Source: a virus. Taken from it: a DNA stretch of 44,476 bases. Location of the stretch: positions 1 through 44,476 of the IMG/VR virus record IMGVR_UViG_3300025044_000002. One strand, 5' to 3'. Positions 799 to 28,153 of this stretch are shown one piece after another. Positions within the stretch are counted from its first letter, which is position 1. Every line of letters begins with the position of its first letter. The translations under genes and the position numbers were made by a program. The notes beneath the pieces are model-generated. The model was given only the letters and a program-made list of their open reading frames with translations, did not search any database and was not told the origin of the DNA.

Positions 799-815
799 CG
801 CAGCGTTAGGGCAAA
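799..815 (-). repeat. Spacer element copy A (TTTGCCCT-N4-CTGCG)
   Basis: Minus-strand TTTGCCCTAACGCTGCG lies directly after the stop of the tail terminator gene and about 46 bases before the HI1506-like gene. It is part of a ~40-base near-identical repeat shared with copy B upstream of the capsid gene; the shared part continues through a C-run and CCACACTGA. Role unknown; see the finding on the six-copy element. Confidence 0.85.
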
Positions 816-2818: not shown

Positions 2819-5371
2819 TTAACGGCCTGTGGCTGAATACACAACAACAGAGGTATAACGGCCGGCCAACGGCTTCGGCGTGTGAATAGCATTGTATTCT
2901 TCGCCATACGCTTCTTTAGTACCGTTAAGTTCACCGGTTGCAGGGTCGCGGCCCTCTTGCATTTCACCAATTGCAAACGCTTTTGCCACCGTATAACCTG
3001 TGGTGCCTGTTTGGCCCATCAAAATACGTTCATCACCAAGGTCAATGCCTGGTGCGTTGGTAGAAAAAGCAGGTAAGCCTTTTACTCTTTCAAGATCCCC
3101 CATGCTTCCCGTATCACTTCCATCACGTTTCAAACTCACCACGAACTGGTCAGCATTGGTGCACACGTCGTTAAGTGTGTTGCTCATTAACAAAAAGTTT
3201 GGAGCTTCGTAGCGGTCGTCTTTCATTAGCGCTTTACGGTTACCTAATTTGCGTAACAAACCGTTTAGGTGCGCTTCTAGCTTGGTTTCAGCCGGCAAAT
3301 CAATATCAAACATCGCAACGTTTGTTGATTGGCTGTAACTAATGGTCGCTGTTGACTCATTAGGCGCTACTACTTCACCGGTTTGGTCAACAAATTGAAT
3401 ATAGCCAAGATTAGGGTTAGTTAGCACATAGTAAGTGCCAGAAGCTTGTGCACCCGTACCATCGAAGGCTTCGATTTCAGTACCACCAAAACTAATAACA
3501 ATGGGGTTAGTCGTTGAGCCCACAGGGTTACCTTGTAGGTCATACACTTGATGTGGGCGAACCACTGGGAATACAGCCGTTTTTAGCACTGTATTAGCGC
3601 CATCTAGCTGTGATGCAATATTTTCAGACGTAACCGGTACTGCACCGAAGCTATCGGACATACGTAGCATTTCATTCGCCAGTCTTTGCACAACAATTTC
3701 ACGAAGAATGCGTGAACACGTTGCTACATGACGGCCCCATGCATCCCAATTAACACCGCTTACACGGGTAAAATGCATCATTTCGTTAGACACATTAAAC
3801 GCAATTTTCATCGCATTGATATATGCCATATCCATTTTCTGTATAACACCGGCCTTTGGAATACCGCCACGTTCAAATACTAAGCCGTCTTTGCGACCTG
3901 AAAACGCTTTTCGTTCTTCATAAGGCACTTGTGTAACACCTTGAGCGCCAGGGTCTGTATTGGTAGCAACTAGCTGTAGTACAGACATATCGTGCAGGGC
4001 TTCACGAATCACTTCACGGCGAAACGCATAAGGTAACGACGTATCTGACATACTGCCTTCTTCACCATTAAGTACTTTATACTCACGGTTTAGTTGCTGA
4101 TTATACTGACCATCAAACAACGTTAGCACTTTATCGACGAACGGATCGACAGACTCAGAAAGGCGAATTGATTTGTTAGAAAACGATGAGGTTAACTTAA
4201 GCTGCTTACGCACATCTTCGGCAAGCTTCATTGCATTTACATTGTGGCCAGATGCTAAAACTACTGAACCCATCGCGCCTTGATGACCAGAGAAACCCAT
4301 ACCAGCGAGTTTAGTTTGCGACTCTAACTCTTCACCCAACGTAATTTGCTGCGTTGCTAACGCATTAACTTGGGCTTCGCTCATATCTGCAGTAATTAAG
4401 TCTGCAGACGCAAGTAACTTTGTTTTTACGCCATCTGACAAACCATCAACACCATTTACCTTTTCGGTAAACAGTTTTACGTTAGCGGCTTTTTTAGATT
4501 CAGTATCGGAAAGTTTTTTCGCTTTGTCGGCTTCTAGTTTCTCAAAAAGAGCCTTAACACCTTCTTCCGTTAGGCCAGTTGAAGTATTAACGGTAACGTT
4601 AGGAACTGAACCTGGCGCAGACTCAGCAAGCGCCAATGCGGTTTCTTGCAAGTTCGCCATAAGGGTCTTTTGTTGTGATTCATCAGAAGTGCCTTCTAGC
4701 ACTTTCTTAGCCGTTTCTACCCATTTGCTTATGGCCTGCTCACTAAGCTTTTTATTAGCAAGCGCAGCTCTAAATAACTCGAGTAACTTTTCCACGTTTA
4801 TTTCCTCAGATAGTTTAACCGCCAGCTGCTGTGAAATTAGCTGTATGCCATCAAAGTCTTCACTTTCTGATAGCTCTACACGGTCTAGATTTTTGATACA
4901 GGGGCGAACCACTAAACCTGCCGCTAATAAGGTAGGGCCATGTTCAGTATGGGGTTCTTCGTTGCTGACGAAATTTTCAATAAATTCCGCTGATAAATAG
5001 CGATAACCTTTGTCCTTGATTAACTCTTGGCCAAAGTTCGTCCACGCTACTTCACCACGCAGTTTGTTCCCATCCAGGAATAAGCGTGTAATTGTGCCGG
5101 CTGCACCATCACTGGGGGTATGAGCACGGTCTATGAAAATATCTTGCCCGAAAACGCCAGCATTGAAATTCTCAACCATGCTTTGAAGCATTGTGGTGTT
5201 AATTTCAAAATTGCCGTAACGAGGGTCATAGAAACGGCCCGTACGAGTAATAGTAACCACACTGGTTTGTTGGTCGGCATCCACCGACACTGCAGCGGCT
5301 AGAAAGCGCACCGTTCGCGTAGCTGCAGGTGCGTCCAATTGGATTTTTCGGTTGTGTCGGCTCATGTCCAC
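2819..5371 (-). CDS. Fused prohead protease - scaffold - major capsid protein
   Basis: One uninterrupted 850-codon frame combines three head functions. Residues ~35-175 look like a Mu gpI-type protease: GRFYDPRYGNFEI, FIDRAH around His84, AAGTITRLFLDG, and GYRYLSAEF with Ser126, which are candidate catalytic residues. Residues ~185-400 are charged, Lys/Glu/Ala-rich and helical, as in a scaffold. Residues ~430-850 form the capsid-like part (RREVIREALHDMSVLQLV, AFNVSNEMMH, and the C-terminal AGRYTSVVVYSATGR). Mu encodes protease/scaffold and capsid as separate genes. The frame opens with GTG 5371; ATG 5365 is an equally possible start. A terminator follows. Domain boundaries are estimates. Confidence 0.8.
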   Translation of the reverse strand: MDMSRHNRKIQLDAPAATRTVRFLAAAVSVDADQQTSVVTITRTGRFYDPRYGNFEINTTMLQSMVENFNAGVFGQDIFIDRAHTPSDGAAGTITRLFLDGNKLRGEVAWTNFGQELIKDKGYRYLSAEFIENFVSNEEPHTEHGPTLLAAGLVVRPCIKNLDRVELSESEDFDGIQLISQQLAVKLSEEINVEKLLELFRAALANKKLSEQAISKWVETAKKVLEGTSDESQQKTLMANLQETALALAESAPGSVPNVTVNTSTGLTEEGVKALFEKLEADKAKKLSDTESKKAANVKLFTEKVNGVDGLSDGVKTKLLASADLITADMSEAQVNALATQQITLGEELESQTKLAGMGFSGHQGAMGSVVLASGHNVNAMKLAEDVRKQLKLTSSFSNKSIRLSESVDPFVDKVLTLFDGQYNQQLNREYKVLNGEEGSMSDTSLPYAFRREVIREALHDMSVLQLVATNTDPGAQGVTQVPYEERKAFSGRKDGLVFERGGIPKAGVIQKMDMAYINAMKIAFNVSNEMMHFTRVSGVNWDAWGRHVATCSRILREIVVQRLANEMLRMSDSFGAVPVTSENIASQLDGANTVLKTAVFPVVRPHQVYDLQGNPVGSTTNPIVISFGGTEIEAFDGTGAQASGTYYVLTNPNLGYIQFVDQTGEVVAPNESTATISYSQSTNVAMFDIDLPAETKLEAHLNGLLRKLGNRKALMKDDRYEAPNFLLMSNTLNDVCTNADQFVVSLKRDGSDTGSMGDLERVKGLPAFSTNAPGIDLGDERILMGQTGTTGYTVAKAFAIGEMQEGRDPATGELNGTKEAYGEEYNAIHTPKPLAGRYTSVVVYSATGR

Positions 5372-5403
5372 ACTTAACTATATTTAACCTAGATTCAGTG
5401 TGG
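5368..5403 (-). promoter_or_regulatory. Possible hairpin over the capsid start region
   Basis: Arms AGTGTGG/CCACACT (5397-5403 and 5368-5374) are complementary over 7 bp with a 22-base spacer. The downstream arm covers the bases directly before the capsid ATG at 5365, so folding could hide the ribosome-entry region. The upstream arm belongs to the spacer repeat shared with copy A. Only a short stem, so tentative. Confidence 0.3.
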
Positions 5404-5415
5404 CAGGGGGGGAAA

Positions 5416-5432
5416 CGCAGCGTTAGGGCAAA
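5416..5432 (-). repeat. Spacer element copy B (TTTGCCCT-N4-CTGCG)
   Basis: Minus-strand TTTGCCCTAACGCTGCG, identical to copies A and C, follows the stop of the Acb2-like ORF by about 10 bases and precedes the capsid gene by ~45 bases. With copy A it shares a ~40-base block. Confidence 0.85.
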
Positions 5433-5442
5433 AAAGAAAGTG

Positions 5443-5622
5443 CTAGCCCAAAGCTGCTCGTACTAAACAATCTTTGGCCTCTAATAACTTTCGAAGGCCT
5501 GCGCTCTTCTCAGCTCCGTCTGGTAAGCTTTCATTCATTTGACGTGCTAAATCACCAACAGGCTTGCTTACCGCCTGTAATTTGGAGGGAAGATGCTCAT
5601 AGTCAAAAAATTTCATGTTCAT
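5443..5622 (-). CDS. Acb2/Tad1-hairpin-like small protein (candidate anti-CBASS/Thoeris sponge)
   Basis: A 59-residue ORF starts ATG 5622 (or ATG 5616): MNMKFFDYEHLPSKLQAVSK, then LARQMNESLPDGAEKS and AGLRKLLEAKDCLVRAALG. The LP-x-G-x-E-K-S...L-x-K-L-x-E-A-K-D...RAA pattern matches, as I recall it, the short helical hairpin shared by phage Acb2 and Tad1-related proteins. Acb2 binds cyclic nucleotides made by CBASS and so blocks immune signalling. The ORF lies in the head operon between MuF and capsid genes; as I recall, acb2 of the Mu-like Pseudomonas phage PaMx33 is also near head genes. It has spacer elements on both sides. Functional assignment is inference; many related phage ORFs are untested. 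Confidence 0.55.
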   Translation of the reverse strand: MNMKFFDYEHLPSKLQAVSKPVGDLARQMNESLPDGAEKSAGLRKLLEAKDCLVRAALG

Positions 5623-5684
5623 AATTTAATTTTCCATTTTTAATGATTTGCTGCTGACAATAGAAAGTTTAGAGCGGCTATTAG

Positions 5685-5701
5685 TGCAAGGTTAGGGCAA
5701 A
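5685..5701 (-). repeat. Spacer element copy D (divergent)
   Basis: Minus-strand TTTGCCCTAACCTTGCA keeps the TTTGCCCT half exactly and differs at two positions of the CTGCG half. It begins three bases after the MuF stop codon and lies ~62 bases before the Acb2-like start. Confidence 0.65.
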
Positions 5702-5704
5702 CTT

Positions 5705-6754
5705 TTATGCAAAGCGTTTTTTAAGGGTTTTGACTTTCGACTTGATCATGGTTTCTTTTAACTGGTCGTTTTGAAGTAAGTTGTTCTTGTATACGCCCAG
5801 TACGCCCACTCGAATATTACCAGGCTGATTACTTAACCATTGAATTCGGTCTTCTTTACCAGCTTGGTCTTCAGCTGATACTTCATCATCAAATACCGCT
5901 TCTACATAACTTAAAGTATTAGGGTGCGCAGGCCACGGGTTCTTACCTTTTGGGTAAACGCCTCTGCCTAAGCCATAACGGTTAACACTTGCATGCATAT
6001 CGCAAATATCCACCCTAGGATGGTTAGGGCTCAATACAAATCGGGTACCGATAACATCATCATCGTCTTGCAAACTATTTTGGTACGACATTCCATAAGC
6101 TCTGTTTATTTCAGTTCTAAATAAGCGTCTGGCTTGCCAATAAGCGGCATCTTCGTCGGTACCTTGTGCTTTTAATACTTTGCCTATTTTATCGCTACTT
6201 GCGTTTTTTTCTTTTGCTTGTAAAGAACTAGGCGGTATTTCACCGTTAGCAATTAAAGCAGCTGCGGCTTCACTGGCAGAACTGCCCTGAATAACTGCAC
6301 TGTTAATAGCACGGATAACCTTATTTTTATGGTTATCGTTAATAATCCAAATGCGATCAGATAATTGAAGCCCATCTTCACCAGTGAACTGTTTAACAAA
6401 ACGGGTTGTGCGCTGACTGATATCAAGAGCAGCTTCGGTGCCAGAGTACGATAAGAAAGGCTTTGTACCAATGGTGGCTGACTCCCGTAAACTAGCATTT
6501 AATAATTCTGTTTGCAGGCGAGATAAATTCAACAGCACACTTTCAATATCACGGCGTAATGCGCTTAGTTGTTGAAGTCGAATAATGCCGATTGAGTCAG
6601 CATAAAAAACTAATAAAGCCACCGTTTCTTCTAAGCTTGCTTCGTAATATTCTTTCAACGTGGCAAGGGTGGCCAAATCTAACGTTAAATACTCTTTTAA
6701 AGCGAGAGCTTGGGCGCGTTTTATAATCGCTTTCTTAGCTGATAACTCGCTCAT
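5705..6754 (-). CDS. MuF-like head morphogenesis protein
   Basis: The start is set at ATG 6754 (MSELSAKKAI) because GAGTG lies 7 bases upstream; ATG 6760 is in frame but poorly spaced. The 349-residue protein has a helical N-terminal half and the MuF-family C-terminal core: ARRLFRTEINRAYG, then SPNHPRVDICDMHA and GVYPKGKNPWPAHPNT. In Mu gp30/SPP1 gp7 relatives this minor head protein binds portal and helps capsid assembly or DNA retention. It follows portal and the GroES-like gene, and precedes the capsid block, consistent with this. Confidence 0.85.
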   Translation of the reverse strand: MSELSAKKAIIKRAQALALKEYLTLDLATLATLKEYYEASLEETVALLVFYADSIGIIRLQQLSALRRDIESVLLNLSRLQTELLNASLRESATIGTKPFLSYSGTEAALDISQRTTRFVKQFTGEDGLQLSDRIWIINDNHKNKVIRAINSAVIQGSSASEAAAALIANGEIPPSSLQAKEKNASSDKIGKVLKAQGTDEDAAYWQARRLFRTEINRAYGMSYQNSLQDDDDVIGTRFVLSPNHPRVDICDMHASVNRYGLGRGVYPKGKNPWPAHPNTLSYVEAVFDDEVSAEDQAGKEDRIQWLSNQPGNIRVGVLGVYKNNLLQNDQLKETMIKSKVKTLKKRFA

Positions 6755-6764
6755 GATCATTCAC

Positions 6765-7046
6765 TCACAATATAGCTTGTACATCGTTAATAGAAAGTAT
6801 GCGTACTGTTTTATCATCAAGCTCATAACGATAACCAGCATACCTACCCAATAACACCCTATCACCTGGCTTCACGAACATAGGGGCTCGTCTACCGTTG
6901 CCCAACACTCTCCCCTTACCTACCGCTAAAACTGTGGCTTGATTCGAAGGCCGACTGTCTATGACAGCAATGGTATTCGACGTTTTAGCTGGGCGTTCAT
7001 CAGTGACCACCACGTTATCAGCAATGGGTTTAAGCATTTTGCACAT
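6765..7046 (-). CDS. GroES/Cpn10-like co-chaperonin
   Basis: The 93-residue protein follows the Cpn10 pattern from end to end: MLKPIADNVVV at the start (ATG 7046, or ATG 7037 which begins MLKP), the central VLAVGKGRVLGNG, then VKPGDRVLLGRYAG and a closing ILSINDVQAI. The segment TSNTIAVIDSRPSNQ lies where the GroES mobile loop is found and carries an IAV tripeptide that could contact GroEL. It overlaps the portal stop and precedes MuF, inside the head operon, so it probably helps GroEL fold the large capsid protein, as T4 gp31 does. Length equals bacterial GroES (about 95). Confidence 0.88.
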   Translation of the reverse strand: MCKMLKPIADNVVVTDERPAKTSNTIAVIDSRPSNQATVLAVGKGRVLGNGRRAPMFVKPGDRVLLGRYAGYRYELDDKTVRILSINDVQAIL

Positions 7047-11058: not shown

Positions 11059-12681
11059 TTATGCTGCAATTCTTAAGCGTGGCGGCAACTTACGCTTAAA
11101 AACGACCATTGGCACTCTGATAGTTCCCAGTAAGGAGGGTTCGGGGAGCCACTTTTCTTCACTGGGAACTACTTCAGAGTTCACAGACATAAGTGCCTCA
11201 GGCCTGTATTTCACTGTTATTTCATTACCTTGCAAAACTATACTGTCTATAAAGGTTTTGAAAAATTCACGAACTTTACCCGGGTTATTCGTTGTTTTAA
11301 TAATATCGGTAAGCAATTCACTTAATTCTGTTAAGTCACTCTCTGATATTTCCAACGTTGGTGGTTTCTCTGTTTCAGCCAGGGCAAGTTCGGTGTTTAG
11401 TTTTCGAACCGTTTCATTATTGGAGCGCAAGCGCGGGGCTAAATCTTGTAGGTTGTAATCTCCACTATCAGCTTCGAGTAATTCATAAAGTCGTGAGTTT
11501 TTTCGTTCATACTCCCTAATTTGCTGAATAATTTCATTGCATCGGTCGCGCTTTTTCTGTGCCCAAGAACCGCATAGGTCGTTTAATTGCAGTAACAGGT
11601 CTTTCAAATTTCGCTCTGTAAGCACTTCTGAGCAGATTAAGTCAGTCATCCAAGGGTCGAATATGTCTGAGTTGATTCTACGATTCTCACAGCCTCTGCC
11701 TTGCTGTTTCGTGCTGCAATTGTAGTAGTAATAGTTTTTAGTGGCGCCCTTCGCTTTTTCTATCCTCATCGACTTGCCACATTTCCCACATTTCAAAATA
11801 CCGGTAAAAAAACGAGTACTTTTAGGTGAGCCCGCATCTTTTGACGCTGCAGGGGTTTGTTCATCCATGGTTTTTTGCACTGCGTTGTACAGTTCCAAAT
11901 TTACAATGGGTTCGTGGCTATCAACGAGGATCCATTCAGAGCGAGGTAATGCGCCGGCCCTGCTTTTTTTACCAAAAGCAATACGGCCCACGACACGTTC
12001 GTTACGTAACAGCACTAACACAGAGGTTTTATTCCATTTTTTTCCGCGGTTTAATCGTCCCTCAGCATTTAATAATTCAGCTATTTGTCGGCCGCCGTAC
12101 CCCGACATTTTTAATTCGAAAATTCTGTTAACCGTTGGCGCTTCCATAGGGTTAGGAATTAAACGATTTTTATTTTTTTCGCCCAGTACCTTCTCCAGCT
12201 GATAGCCGTAGGTAAGAAAACCACCATTAAAATATCCTCTCTGAGCATTCGCTATCATCGAGCGTGTGGTGTCTTGTGATACCTGGCGGGAATAATACTC
12301 GTCGAACAGCTCTAGCATACCCTCGTAAATAAAGCCTGAATCGCCTGTGTCGATGTTTTGCGATACGTAACCCACCTTGGTATTACTTGTTGCTAAACGG
12401 CGCTTGTTTAACTTTGCTTCGAGCGCATTTCGGGCAAAACGGGAAGTACTCCAGCAAATAAAGTAGTCAACGTCGAAATTTTCGCAGTAAGAAATAGCCT
12501 GTTGGAACGCGGGGCGATTATCAGAGGCGCCAGAAATACCTTCGTCGGTAAATATTTTTTTTACCTCAGCACCTAAGCTTTCAGCGTGAATTCTGCATTT
12601 CTCTATTTGGCTTTGTACGGGCAGTTCTTTTTCCGCCTGTTTCGCTGTGGAAACACGCGCATAAATTACACAAGTGGTCAT
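11059..12681 (-). CDS. Large serine recombinase/integrase
   Basis: The 540-residue protein is a full large serine recombinase. Residues 1-150 are the catalytic domain with YARVST (Ser11 nucleophile, Arg9), FTDEGISG and the conserved WSTSRFARN segment. Residues ~150-270 are the recombinase DNA-binding domain (PNPMEAPTVNRIFELK, TSVLVLLRNERVVG). A zinc ribbon follows (Cys298, Cys301, Cys322, Cys331), then a coiled-coil region (~360-440) and a beta C-terminus. Such enzymes integrate phages at unrelated attB/attP sites and need a directionality factor to excise. It lies between the Mor-like gene and terminase, apart from the tyrosine integrase, so which enzyme handles integration is open. Its start carries the GGAACTAACA-type leader seen on early genes. 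Confidence 0.92.
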   Translation of the reverse strand: MTTCVIYARVSTAKQAEKELPVQSQIEKCRIHAESLGAEVKKIFTDEGISGASDNRPAFQQAISYCENFDVDYFICWSTSRFARNALEAKLNKRRLATSNTKVGYVSQNIDTGDSGFIYEGMLELFDEYYSRQVSQDTTRSMIANAQRGYFNGGFLTYGYQLEKVLGEKNKNRLIPNPMEAPTVNRIFELKMSGYGGRQIAELLNAEGRLNRGKKWNKTSVLVLLRNERVVGRIAFGKKSRAGALPRSEWILVDSHEPIVNLELYNAVQKTMDEQTPAASKDAGSPKSTRFFTGILKCGKCGKSMRIEKAKGATKNYYYYNCSTKQQGRGCENRRINSDIFDPWMTDLICSEVLTERNLKDLLLQLNDLCGSWAQKKRDRCNEIIQQIREYERKNSRLYELLEADSGDYNLQDLAPRLRSNNETVRKLNTELALAETEKPPTLEISESDLTELSELLTDIIKTTNNPGKVREFFKTFIDSIVLQGNEITVKYRPEALMSVNSEVVPSEEKWLPEPSLLGTIRVPMVVFKRKLPPRLRIAA

Positions 12682-13577: not shown

Positions 13578-14576
13578 TTATTTGTTAAGGGCGTTAATAA
13601 GGGGGGTTACTGCAGTGGCTATTTTGCTGAGGGGGTTACCTTTGTCTACTTGCTTAGTCAGTTTGCGTAACGCTAACTGTGTGTATATCTCAGTGGTTTT
13701 AGGGTCGCTATGGCCTAGTAGCGTTTGCCTAGTAATGATATCTAAGTCTTCTTCCGCATACTCAGTGCCAGTTAGATGGCGAAGCGCATGGGGATGACTC
13801 TGATTTGCAGGAACGCCGGCTGATAAGCCCCTTCTCTTAATCATTTTCTGAATAGTACGCCTTGAAATGCGGCGATTCTCGCCATAATAATCCCAGGGCG
13901 GGCATAGACGATTCTGAGTGCTAACGAATAAAACCTGGTCACCATTGGGTAGCGTACGGTTGATATGGCGTAATTCTGGGTGTCCGATATAAACGCGTAA
14001 GAATAATTGCGCCTCGAGCGGCAATGGCACCTGTCGTTCTTTACTACCCTTCTCTACTACTCTAACGGCTAAGCGCTCCGAATCATCATGCTCATAACTC
14101 ACAATATGAGATACGTTCATATTGACGACACCAGCCAACCTGAAGCCGCAGCCCCCCATTAATGCGATGATAGCCGCGTCTCGAACCCCAGTGAAAGTTT
14201 CAAGGTCGCAGCTTTGGAGCAGCTTTTCAAAATACTTCAAACCCATGGCGACGGGAATTTTTTGCGCCGTGGCCGGATACGCTAACGTAAGAGTAGGGTC
14301 TGTAGCTATATGGCCATTGTCCGACAAATAAGCATAAAACCCTTTTAATGCGGCAACAGCAGTACGACGGCTTTGTGGCACCAGTTTCTTTTGATGTAAG
14401 TAAAGGCCAGTAAACTGCTCTAAATTACCCGGTTTAATTTCAAATGGATTAACCAAATGTTCTTCACAGTAGGTGTGGTAAAGAACAAGGTAATAAGCGT
14501 ACTTCTTTATTGTTTCAGGTGATCGCCCTTCGTTCAGCTGTTTAAACTGCAACCACTCTTTAACCAAACTTTTCAT
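13578..14576 (-). CDS. XerC/D-like tyrosine integrase
   Basis: The start is set at ATG 14576 (MKSLVKEWLQFKQLNEGRS), with GGGAACC seven bases upstream; the in-frame start at 14612 has no usable spacing. The 332-residue enzyme has an N-terminal SAM-like core-binding domain (~1-90, SPETIKKYAYYLVLYH) and a catalytic domain with Arg146 (GGCGFRLAG), Lys176 (EKGSKER), His263-x-x-Arg266 (HALRH), His289 (LLGHSDPKTT) and the Tyr298 nucleophile (EIYTQL). All catalytic positions are intact. It is most like XerC/D-type phage or plasmid recombinases. Iterons and a large inverted repeat lie directly upstream, and a hairpin directly downstream. Confidence 0.92.
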   Translation of the reverse strand: MKSLVKEWLQFKQLNEGRSPETIKKYAYYLVLYHTYCEEHLVNPFEIKPGNLEQFTGLYLHQKKLVPQSRRTAVAALKGFYAYLSDNGHIATDPTLTLAYPATAQKIPVAMGLKYFEKLLQSCDLETFTGVRDAAIIALMGGCGFRLAGVVNMNVSHIVSYEHDDSERLAVRVVEKGSKERQVPLPLEAQLFLRVYIGHPELRHINRTLPNGDQVLFVSTQNRLCPPWDYYGENRRISRRTIQKMIKRRGLSAGVPANQSHPHALRHLTGTEYAEEDLDIITRQTLLGHSDPKTTEIYTQLALRKLTKQVDKGNPLSKIATAVTPLINALNK

Positions 14577-14646
14577 TTTAAAAGGTTCCCAGGGGCATAT
14601 TCTTACGGACAACCGGACATTTCCCCCTTTTTATCGCTACAAGCCA

Positions 14647-23477: not shown

Positions 23478-23619
23478 TGTGAATAGTTCCTTCTCGATGC
23501 TGCCCAAAACCAGATTCACGATCTTCTTTTTTACGGCGCGCAGCATCGGCCAATAAGCGCTCATGCTGGCGCTTTATTTCTTCACGCAATGGTTTAAAGG
23601 TTTGACGAATAGCACTCAT
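23470..23619 (-). CDS. Small basic helical protein (49 residues)
   Basis: ATG 23619 overlaps the recombinase stop as ATGA. The product MSAIRQTFKPLREEIKRQHE...ARRKKEDRESGFGQHREG is a single very charged helix. Its stop lies just inside the next gene, giving tight coupling. Function unknown; it may bind nucleic acid or be a recombinase accessory factor. Confidence 0.6.
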   Translation of the reverse strand: MSAIRQTFKPLREEIKRQHERLLADAARRKKEDRESGFGQHREGTIHNV

Positions 23620-24248
23620 AGCGCAGCCTCCTGCATTGTTTTTCGTAGGTCGTCGCGGCTAGGCTGTGTATAAACCTGAGTCGTAGTGATGTGTTCATGG
23701 CCTAAAACAGCTTGAACCTGCCTTAACCCTTCACCGGTTGTGGAATTTTGTAGTCTGCGTACTGCCCATGTGTGGCGTAACCAGTGAGGTGAGGCTTTTA
23801 CAATGCCTGCAGTGTTGCACCAATGCGTCATTCTCTGCTGATACGCTCGAATACTCATGCGCTGCCTGCGGCGAGACAAAATTAACGCCTGCTCGTCATA
23901 ACTACTCTCGGGGCTAGCTGCTATCATTTTGCGGCGTATTTTTAATAGCGCTTCTAGGGCTTTTCGTGCTGCATCAACTAAATAAATCTCTTGTTTTTTA
24001 TCCAGTCCACGCACGCTATCTTTCTTGCCGCCCTTTTGTTTTTCCGAGGCCAGATGCAAGTAGCCTTTATCCAGCGCTTCTAATGCATCCGCTTCATCTA
24101 ACAAGTGCACCGTTTGCACACGCCTTGCGGTATAGCGCATCAGCAGCATCCAGTTAAGGTCACGCTCGGCTTCTACATCTTTGAATTTACGTAAGGTGCT
24201 AAACAGTATTTTTTCTTCTTCACGGGTTAAACTTTTAACTTCAGCCAT
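23616..24248 (-). CDS. Minimal tyrosine recombinase (catalytic domain only)
   Basis: The 210-residue protein has an intact tyrosine recombinase catalytic domain: RYTARRVQTV (Arg42/43), a lysine in ASEKQKGGKK, HWLRH (His155, Arg158), VLGHEHITTT (His184) and QVYTQP (Tyr193). It has no N-terminal core-binding domain, so it is about 60% of the normal size. It sits in the early replication operon, away from the integrase, and overlaps its neighbours. Possible roles are resolving dimers or concatemers, excision, or regulating the main integrase. All catalytic residues look intact. Confidence 0.88.
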   Translation of the reverse strand: MAEVKSLTREEEKILFSTLRKFKDVEAERDLNWMLLMRYTARRVQTVHLLDEADALEALDKGYLHLASEKQKGGKKDSVRGLDKKQEIYLVDAARKALEALLKIRRKMIAASPESSYDEQALILSRRRQRMSIRAYQQRMTHWCNTAGIVKASPHWLRHTWAVRRLQNSTTGEGLRQVQAVLGHEHITTTQVYTQPSRDDLRKTMQEAAL

Positions 24249-28136: not shown

Positions 28137-28153
28137 CGCAGCGTTAGGGCAAA
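28137..28153 (-). repeat. Spacer element copy C (TTTGCCCT-N4-CTGCG)
   Basis: Minus-strand TTTGCCCTAACGCTGCG, identical to copies A and B, lies eight bases after the 87-residue gene's stop and before the lysis cassette. Here it continues into a GC hairpin (CGCGG...CCGCG). Confidence 0.85.

Follow-up and report, generated by a model that had tools for sequence, protein, structure and literature searches.

Acb2 and Tad1, with which phages sequester bacterial immune signals, are characterized proteins of the superfamily to which the gene reported here is remotely tied. In the Acb2 protomer, a short helix accompanies two long antiparallel ones, and Tad1 possesses an N-terminal beta-sheet domain (PMC12043709). 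In Acb2 of phage T4, F82 stacks bases and Y8 is required, and sponges set off the toxicity of the Panoptes OptSE operon (PMC12657218). The C-terminal helical hairpin of Tad1 (PDB 7uav, 8kbb-8kbh) is connected to the same superfamily through profiles of the SirDuracell-gp102 type of Pfam family PF24729 (Acb2_Tad1_hairpin); within the PDB, the SirDuracell-type profile matches both Acb2 homolog 43 (9ptq, E 2e-11) and Tad1 structures (E 1e-4). The 9ptq entry is titled as Acb2 homolog 43 complexed with 3'cADPR, which means that a Thoeris-type signal is the ligand of at least one near branch. A search of the open-access literature found no paper on Acb2 homolog 43.

The window analyzed here is a 44,476-bp IMG/VR virus record, and its head operon contains a 59-residue ORF for which a first-pass annotation had proposed Acb2/Tad1 membership. 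Based on sequence comparisons, we consider that this ORF probably represents an unrecognized subfamily of Acb2/Tad1-like nucleotide-signal sponges.

A small conserved gene among head genes

The ORF lies on the minus strand, which the first-pass annotation had not given, and its placement between MuF-like and capsid genes is as that annotation described (Table 1). Its translation (5622 to 5443) is MNMKFFDYEHLPSKLQAVSKPVGDLARQMNESLPDGAEKSAGLRKLLEAKDCLVRAALG, in which the pattern LP-x-G-x-EKS...LRKLLEAKD...RAA, the original basis for the family proposal, can be read. At E<=1e-5, tblastn matches the ORF to 302 phage records with identity up to 86%. One scan of IMG/VR found at least 330 stretches encoding a relative, to which a profile search adds more. 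A further 42 loci belong to bacterial genomes or MAGs; most of these are from proteobacteria (Thalassotalea, Pantoea, Xenorhabdus, Providencia, Rhodobacterales), and a few are from actinobacteria. In comparisons with 11 homologs, synonymous differences reach saturation (pS 0.75-1.08) whereas nonsynonymous differences are just 0.08-0.20. A spurious ORF might be suspected from the length of only 59 codons and a modest ribosome-binding site; with hundreds of homologs and this contrast between site classes the suspicion is refuted and retains virtually no probability, and the ORF is a genuine gene under strong purifying selection. The accompanying suggestion that gene callers had missed it is no more than partly right: most named phage relatives are annotated, but nearly always as "hypothetical protein".

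The ORF is a clear member of phrog_1761 (E 1e-31) and phrog_5120 (E 8e-24), both of "unknown function"; with 148 positions and an extra N-terminal part, the phrog_1761 profile exceeds the ORF in length. This PHROGs 1761/5120 family spans hundreds of phages and has no Pfam entry.

Table 1. Features of the window at and around the 59-residue ORF, with the copies of the boundary element.
Feature	Position	Strand	Remarks
59-aa ORF, Acb2/Tad1-hairpin-like protein	5443..5622	-	ATG start; second in-frame ATG at 5616
MuF-like head morphogenesis protein	5705..6760	-	phrog_1657, E 4e-35; upstream neighbor in transcription
Mu-like I protease fused to capsid-like region	2819..5371	-	PF10123, E 9e-12; downstream neighbor in transcription
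Upstream boundary element TTTGCCCTAACCTTGC	5686..5701	-	16-nt direct repeat; just 3' of MuF stop
Downstream boundary element TTTGCCCTAACGCTGC	5417..5432	-	16-nt direct repeat; just 3' of ORF stop, upstream of capsid gene
Third boundary element copy	800..815	-	marks second accessory slot, empty or filled in sister phages
Fourth boundary element copy	28138..28153	-	3' of a stop codon
Accessory slot MuF/protease-capsid	5372..5704	.	~64 bp, without ORF, in seven sister phages

Several other features of the record were observed. The Mu-I-like head protease and the capsid-like C-terminal region occupy a single 850-aa frame, and a GroES-like co-chaperonin (phrog_3188, E 5e-15) is encoded in the portal/MuF interval of the head operon (6765-7046, minus). 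One large serine and two tyrosine recombinases are found in the same record (11059-12681, 13578-14612 and 23616-24248, all minus).

Remote membership of the Acb2/Tad1-hairpin superfamily

Direct searches did not place the ORF in a known family. It has no Pfam match at E<=10, though PF24729 is present in the library; with a curated cutoff of 27 bits, it falls outside that family, while T4 Acb2 as a positive control scores 71 bits. The HMM comparison proposed in the first-pass annotation thus came out negative. The NCBIfam search returned no match and the PDB sequence search nothing significant. Phage P1 gp22, a sheath protein, recurred as a weak match (E 0.006-0.2), which was judged to be chance. 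Among PHROGs, a marginal match to CII-like activators (E 0.13) would accord with a regulatory or antirepressor-like small phage protein, a reading we find very improbable given that the match is at noise level, that the Acb2/Tad1 hairpin profile evidence is far stronger, and that the ORF has no recognized DNA-binding domain.

The relatives are more informative. PF24729 is the commonest family matched weakly among them (21 of 82, best E 7e-4), and one, L099, scored in detail in a single-sequence Pfam scan of divergent relatives, reached 16.4 bits, below the curated cutoff. This sub-threshold match led to profile-profile comparisons with a SirDuracell-type PF24729 set of 82 sequences; the type member of this set reaches 59 bits against PF24729. 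The query family aligned to this set with an hhalign Prob of 94.8 and a score of 41.3, covering query residues 16-49, against a mean of 10.0 (SD 2.2, maximum 17.6) for 200 column-shuffled versions and 9.6 for a reversed alignment; the close clade alone (A1) scored 38.6. T4 Acb2 reached a Prob of 75.7 and a score of 29.2 against the same set, which places the query family nearer than T4 Acb2 to the SirDuracell-type core. The query alone scored 20.6 bits against the SirDuracell-type HMM, compared with 6.5 for the best of 1,280 shuffled family sequences and 10.4 for the best non-family ORF among 11,081 ORFs. Judged from these controls, homology of the query family to the superfamily is very probably real.

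A direct link to T4-type Acb2 was not detected (hhalign Prob 0.2-0.7, with HMM scores inside the shuffled range), and the query family's own profile reached 9ptq in the PDB only at E 0.7. "Acb2" as an identity was consequently dropped in favor of the superfamily, with Acb2 homolog 43 and Tad1 as the nearest relatives. The ORF should not be named Acb2 or Tad1, because T4-type homology, the N-terminal domain of Tad1 and the curated HMM cutoff all failed; it consists of the hairpin only and has no direct match to Tad1. Acb2/Vs.4 of T4 and p26 (PDB 7uq2, 8h2j) are likewise small phage proteins, with a C-terminal helix KLxEA.....RA recognizable by eye, but are 88-94 aa in length.

Structure prediction is consistent with this placement. 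The single-chain AlphaFold model (pLDDT 97) has helices at residues 3-6, 13-32 and 37-58, of which the two long ones are antiparallel and form the hairpin expected of the superfamily, as the first-pass annotation had anticipated; the modeled topology agrees with that of the Acb2 protomer (PMC12043709). In a Foldseek search of viral models (BFVD), the top six matches were members or likely members of the query's own family. Most named matches at ranks 7-32 were "Acb2/Tad1 hairpin" proteins, those at ranks 7, 10-13, 15, 16, 19, 21-24, 26, 28, 31 and 32 bearing the name "Acb2/Tad1 hairpin domain-containing", with probability up to 1.00. As folds go, a helical hairpin is simple. The PDB fold search with the ORF model returned generic helical proteins only and no Acb2/Tad1, whereas the model of a curated PF24729 member, used as a control, retrieved 9ptq (probability 1.00) and T4 Vs.4 with cGAMP (7uq2, probability 0.84). 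Since the control retrieves solved sponges and the query model does not, the query is a truly divergent relative. The Acb2/Tad1 assignment thus stands as remote superfamily membership, and falls as an assignment to the curated family or to T4-type Acb2.

The conserved face and its putative ligand

With the SirDuracell type and 9ptq, the ORF shares profile homology over helix 1 and up to the middle of helix 2 (LPxGxEKS...KLxEA), the F-x-Y/H-[x]-H-x-P start, a two-helix hairpin and a similar length, and the positions E38, K45, E48 and A49 are common to the query family and the SirDuracell type; the N-terminal loop of the ORF is about 5 residues shorter. The two diverge at the end of helix 2, where FWANAAIAR in the SirDuracell type becomes KDxxVRAxL in the query family, such that an invariant RKLxEAKDxxVR block stands where known members have the aromatic FWAN stretch. 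Across 82 diverse family members, the invariant residues are F6, H10, L11, A26, E38, R44, K45, L46, E48, K50, D51, V54 and R55. The position opposite T4 F82 is L/I/V and never aromatic, and the column aligned with Y8 holds Y/F/H/W in 76 of the 82, as read from a non-significant alignment to T4 Acb2. From these substitutions, we infer that the ligand contacts of the query family differ from those of known members. It is possible, though somewhat doubtful, that the PHROGs 1761/5120 family is a large overlooked sponge class in which the RKLxEAKDxxVR helix replaces the aromatic pocket and recognizes another signal, or the known signals in another manner.

The same invariant face could instead bind a protein or nucleic-acid partner (e.g. 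a host regulator), in which case the ORF would be a diverged superfamily member with another job. Such a role would account for the lost FWAN stretch, for the invariance of the charged residues R44, K45, E48, K50, D51 and R55 in 82 members, for the missing PDB fold match to known sponges and for the occasional fusion of relatives to a zinc-ribbon-like segment. We nevertheless hold it to be rather unlikely, as signal nucleotides are the ligands of each of the nearest characterized relatives (Acb2, Tad1 and Acb2 homolog 43) and an accessory, moron-like distribution suits counter-defense.

We favor a reading in which the ORF product, a small helical-hairpin protein from an as yet unnamed branch of the superfamily, most likely assembles into an oligomer. 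The putative oligomer would bind a host nucleotide-type immune second messenger, either a cyclic oligonucleotide of CBASS or a cADPR-type signal of Thoeris, and the bound messenger would be kept from its defense effector, allowing infection to proceed. If this is true, hundreds of phages and prophages harbor an unannotated nucleotide-signal sponge, and counter-defense against CBASS, Thoeris or related signaling reaches further than known. The 59-residue protein would then also offer a simple scaffold for the discovery of new immune ligands, with the invariant helix-2 block providing a directly testable prediction of new binding chemistry.

An element-flanked accessory slot

The first-pass annotation had described two spacer elements bracketing the ORF, as if a cassette had been inserted; the elements are real, and the cassette idea gains support from sister phages. 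The bracketing sequences are a direct repeat (Table 1), an instance of a 16/17-bp element, TTTGCCCTAACGCTGC(G), that occurs in four copies in the window versus 0.5 expected; every copy is on the coding strand and follows a stop codon at a distance of 2-10 nt. Of the sister phages whose MuF is 72-81% identical, seven (L421-L425, L428 and L429) have a MuF-capsid gap of about 64 bp that contains a single conserved 17-bp element and no ORF. The element-ORF-element arrangement (~333 bp) is found in the window, in the identical contig L007 and in L011. The empty site in sister phages favors reading the ORF as an exchangeable accessory cassette lodged between head genes. Such an element-flanked slot would be an example of gene gain and loss amid an essential head operon.

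This distribution also bears on whether the ORF encodes a minor head, assembly or decoration protein. Its position between MuF and capsid would invite that reading, but the seven sister phages have the same head genes without it, and relatives in other phages adjoin the small terminase, tail sheath, lysis genes, the topoisomerase/rIIA region or DNA-repair genes. Absence from sister phages combined with such varied genome positions indicates moron-like behavior rather than a structural role, which we regard as very improbable. In Vibrio phage D288, a curated PF24729 member directly follows the portal gene, setting a precedent for a sponge-type gene placed in a head operon.

The boundary element is a candidate exchange boundary sequence, late regulatory element, or both. 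The core of integron attC sites is RYYYAAC; an attC origin was considered since the repeats follow stop codons, and is not claimed, as GCCCTAAC misfits this core. Before the start of the capsid gene, an imperfect inverted repeat CACACT...AGTGTG, identified by eye in the window (5377-5410, minus) and in sister phages, is a possible leader hairpin.

Other contents of the slot were observed. L420 and L427 have a MuF-capsid gap of about 274 bp with no recognizable ORF, in which an insert of about 210 nt (4557-4770 in each) is conserved between both phages; it had no match in Rfam and may be a non-coding RNA or the remnant of a gene. In L426, the slot is 1.6 kb (4560-6196) and encodes a 96-aa HTH-like protein together with a 242-aa membrane-like protein on the opposite strand. 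A second slot, with its element at window position 815 after a gene of ~136-137 aa, comprises 65 bp and one element in six loci; in three further loci it spans 1.15-1.27 kb and holds other genes. When filled (L465, L470 and L466), it holds a 188-aa protein that is phage-antirepressor-like by eye, as well as a 59-aa ORF unlike the query.

Hairpins fused to additional segments were also encountered. In Ochrobactrum phage vB_OspP_OH (L094, 403-771), a DnaJ/anti-TRAP-like zinc-ribbon segment, identified by weak Pfam matches only, precedes a fused hairpin domain. The 10.4-bit non-family ORF sits in contigs L128/L129, which also encode a query-family member, and resembles an FW-type hairpin. In both contigs, an ORF starting MATEEGPNLCKCCATN has a cysteine-rich N-terminus fused to the hairpin PDEHRAVKKLEDALFWLKHSIRK, and this fusion is probably an Acb2/Tad1-type hairpin protein.
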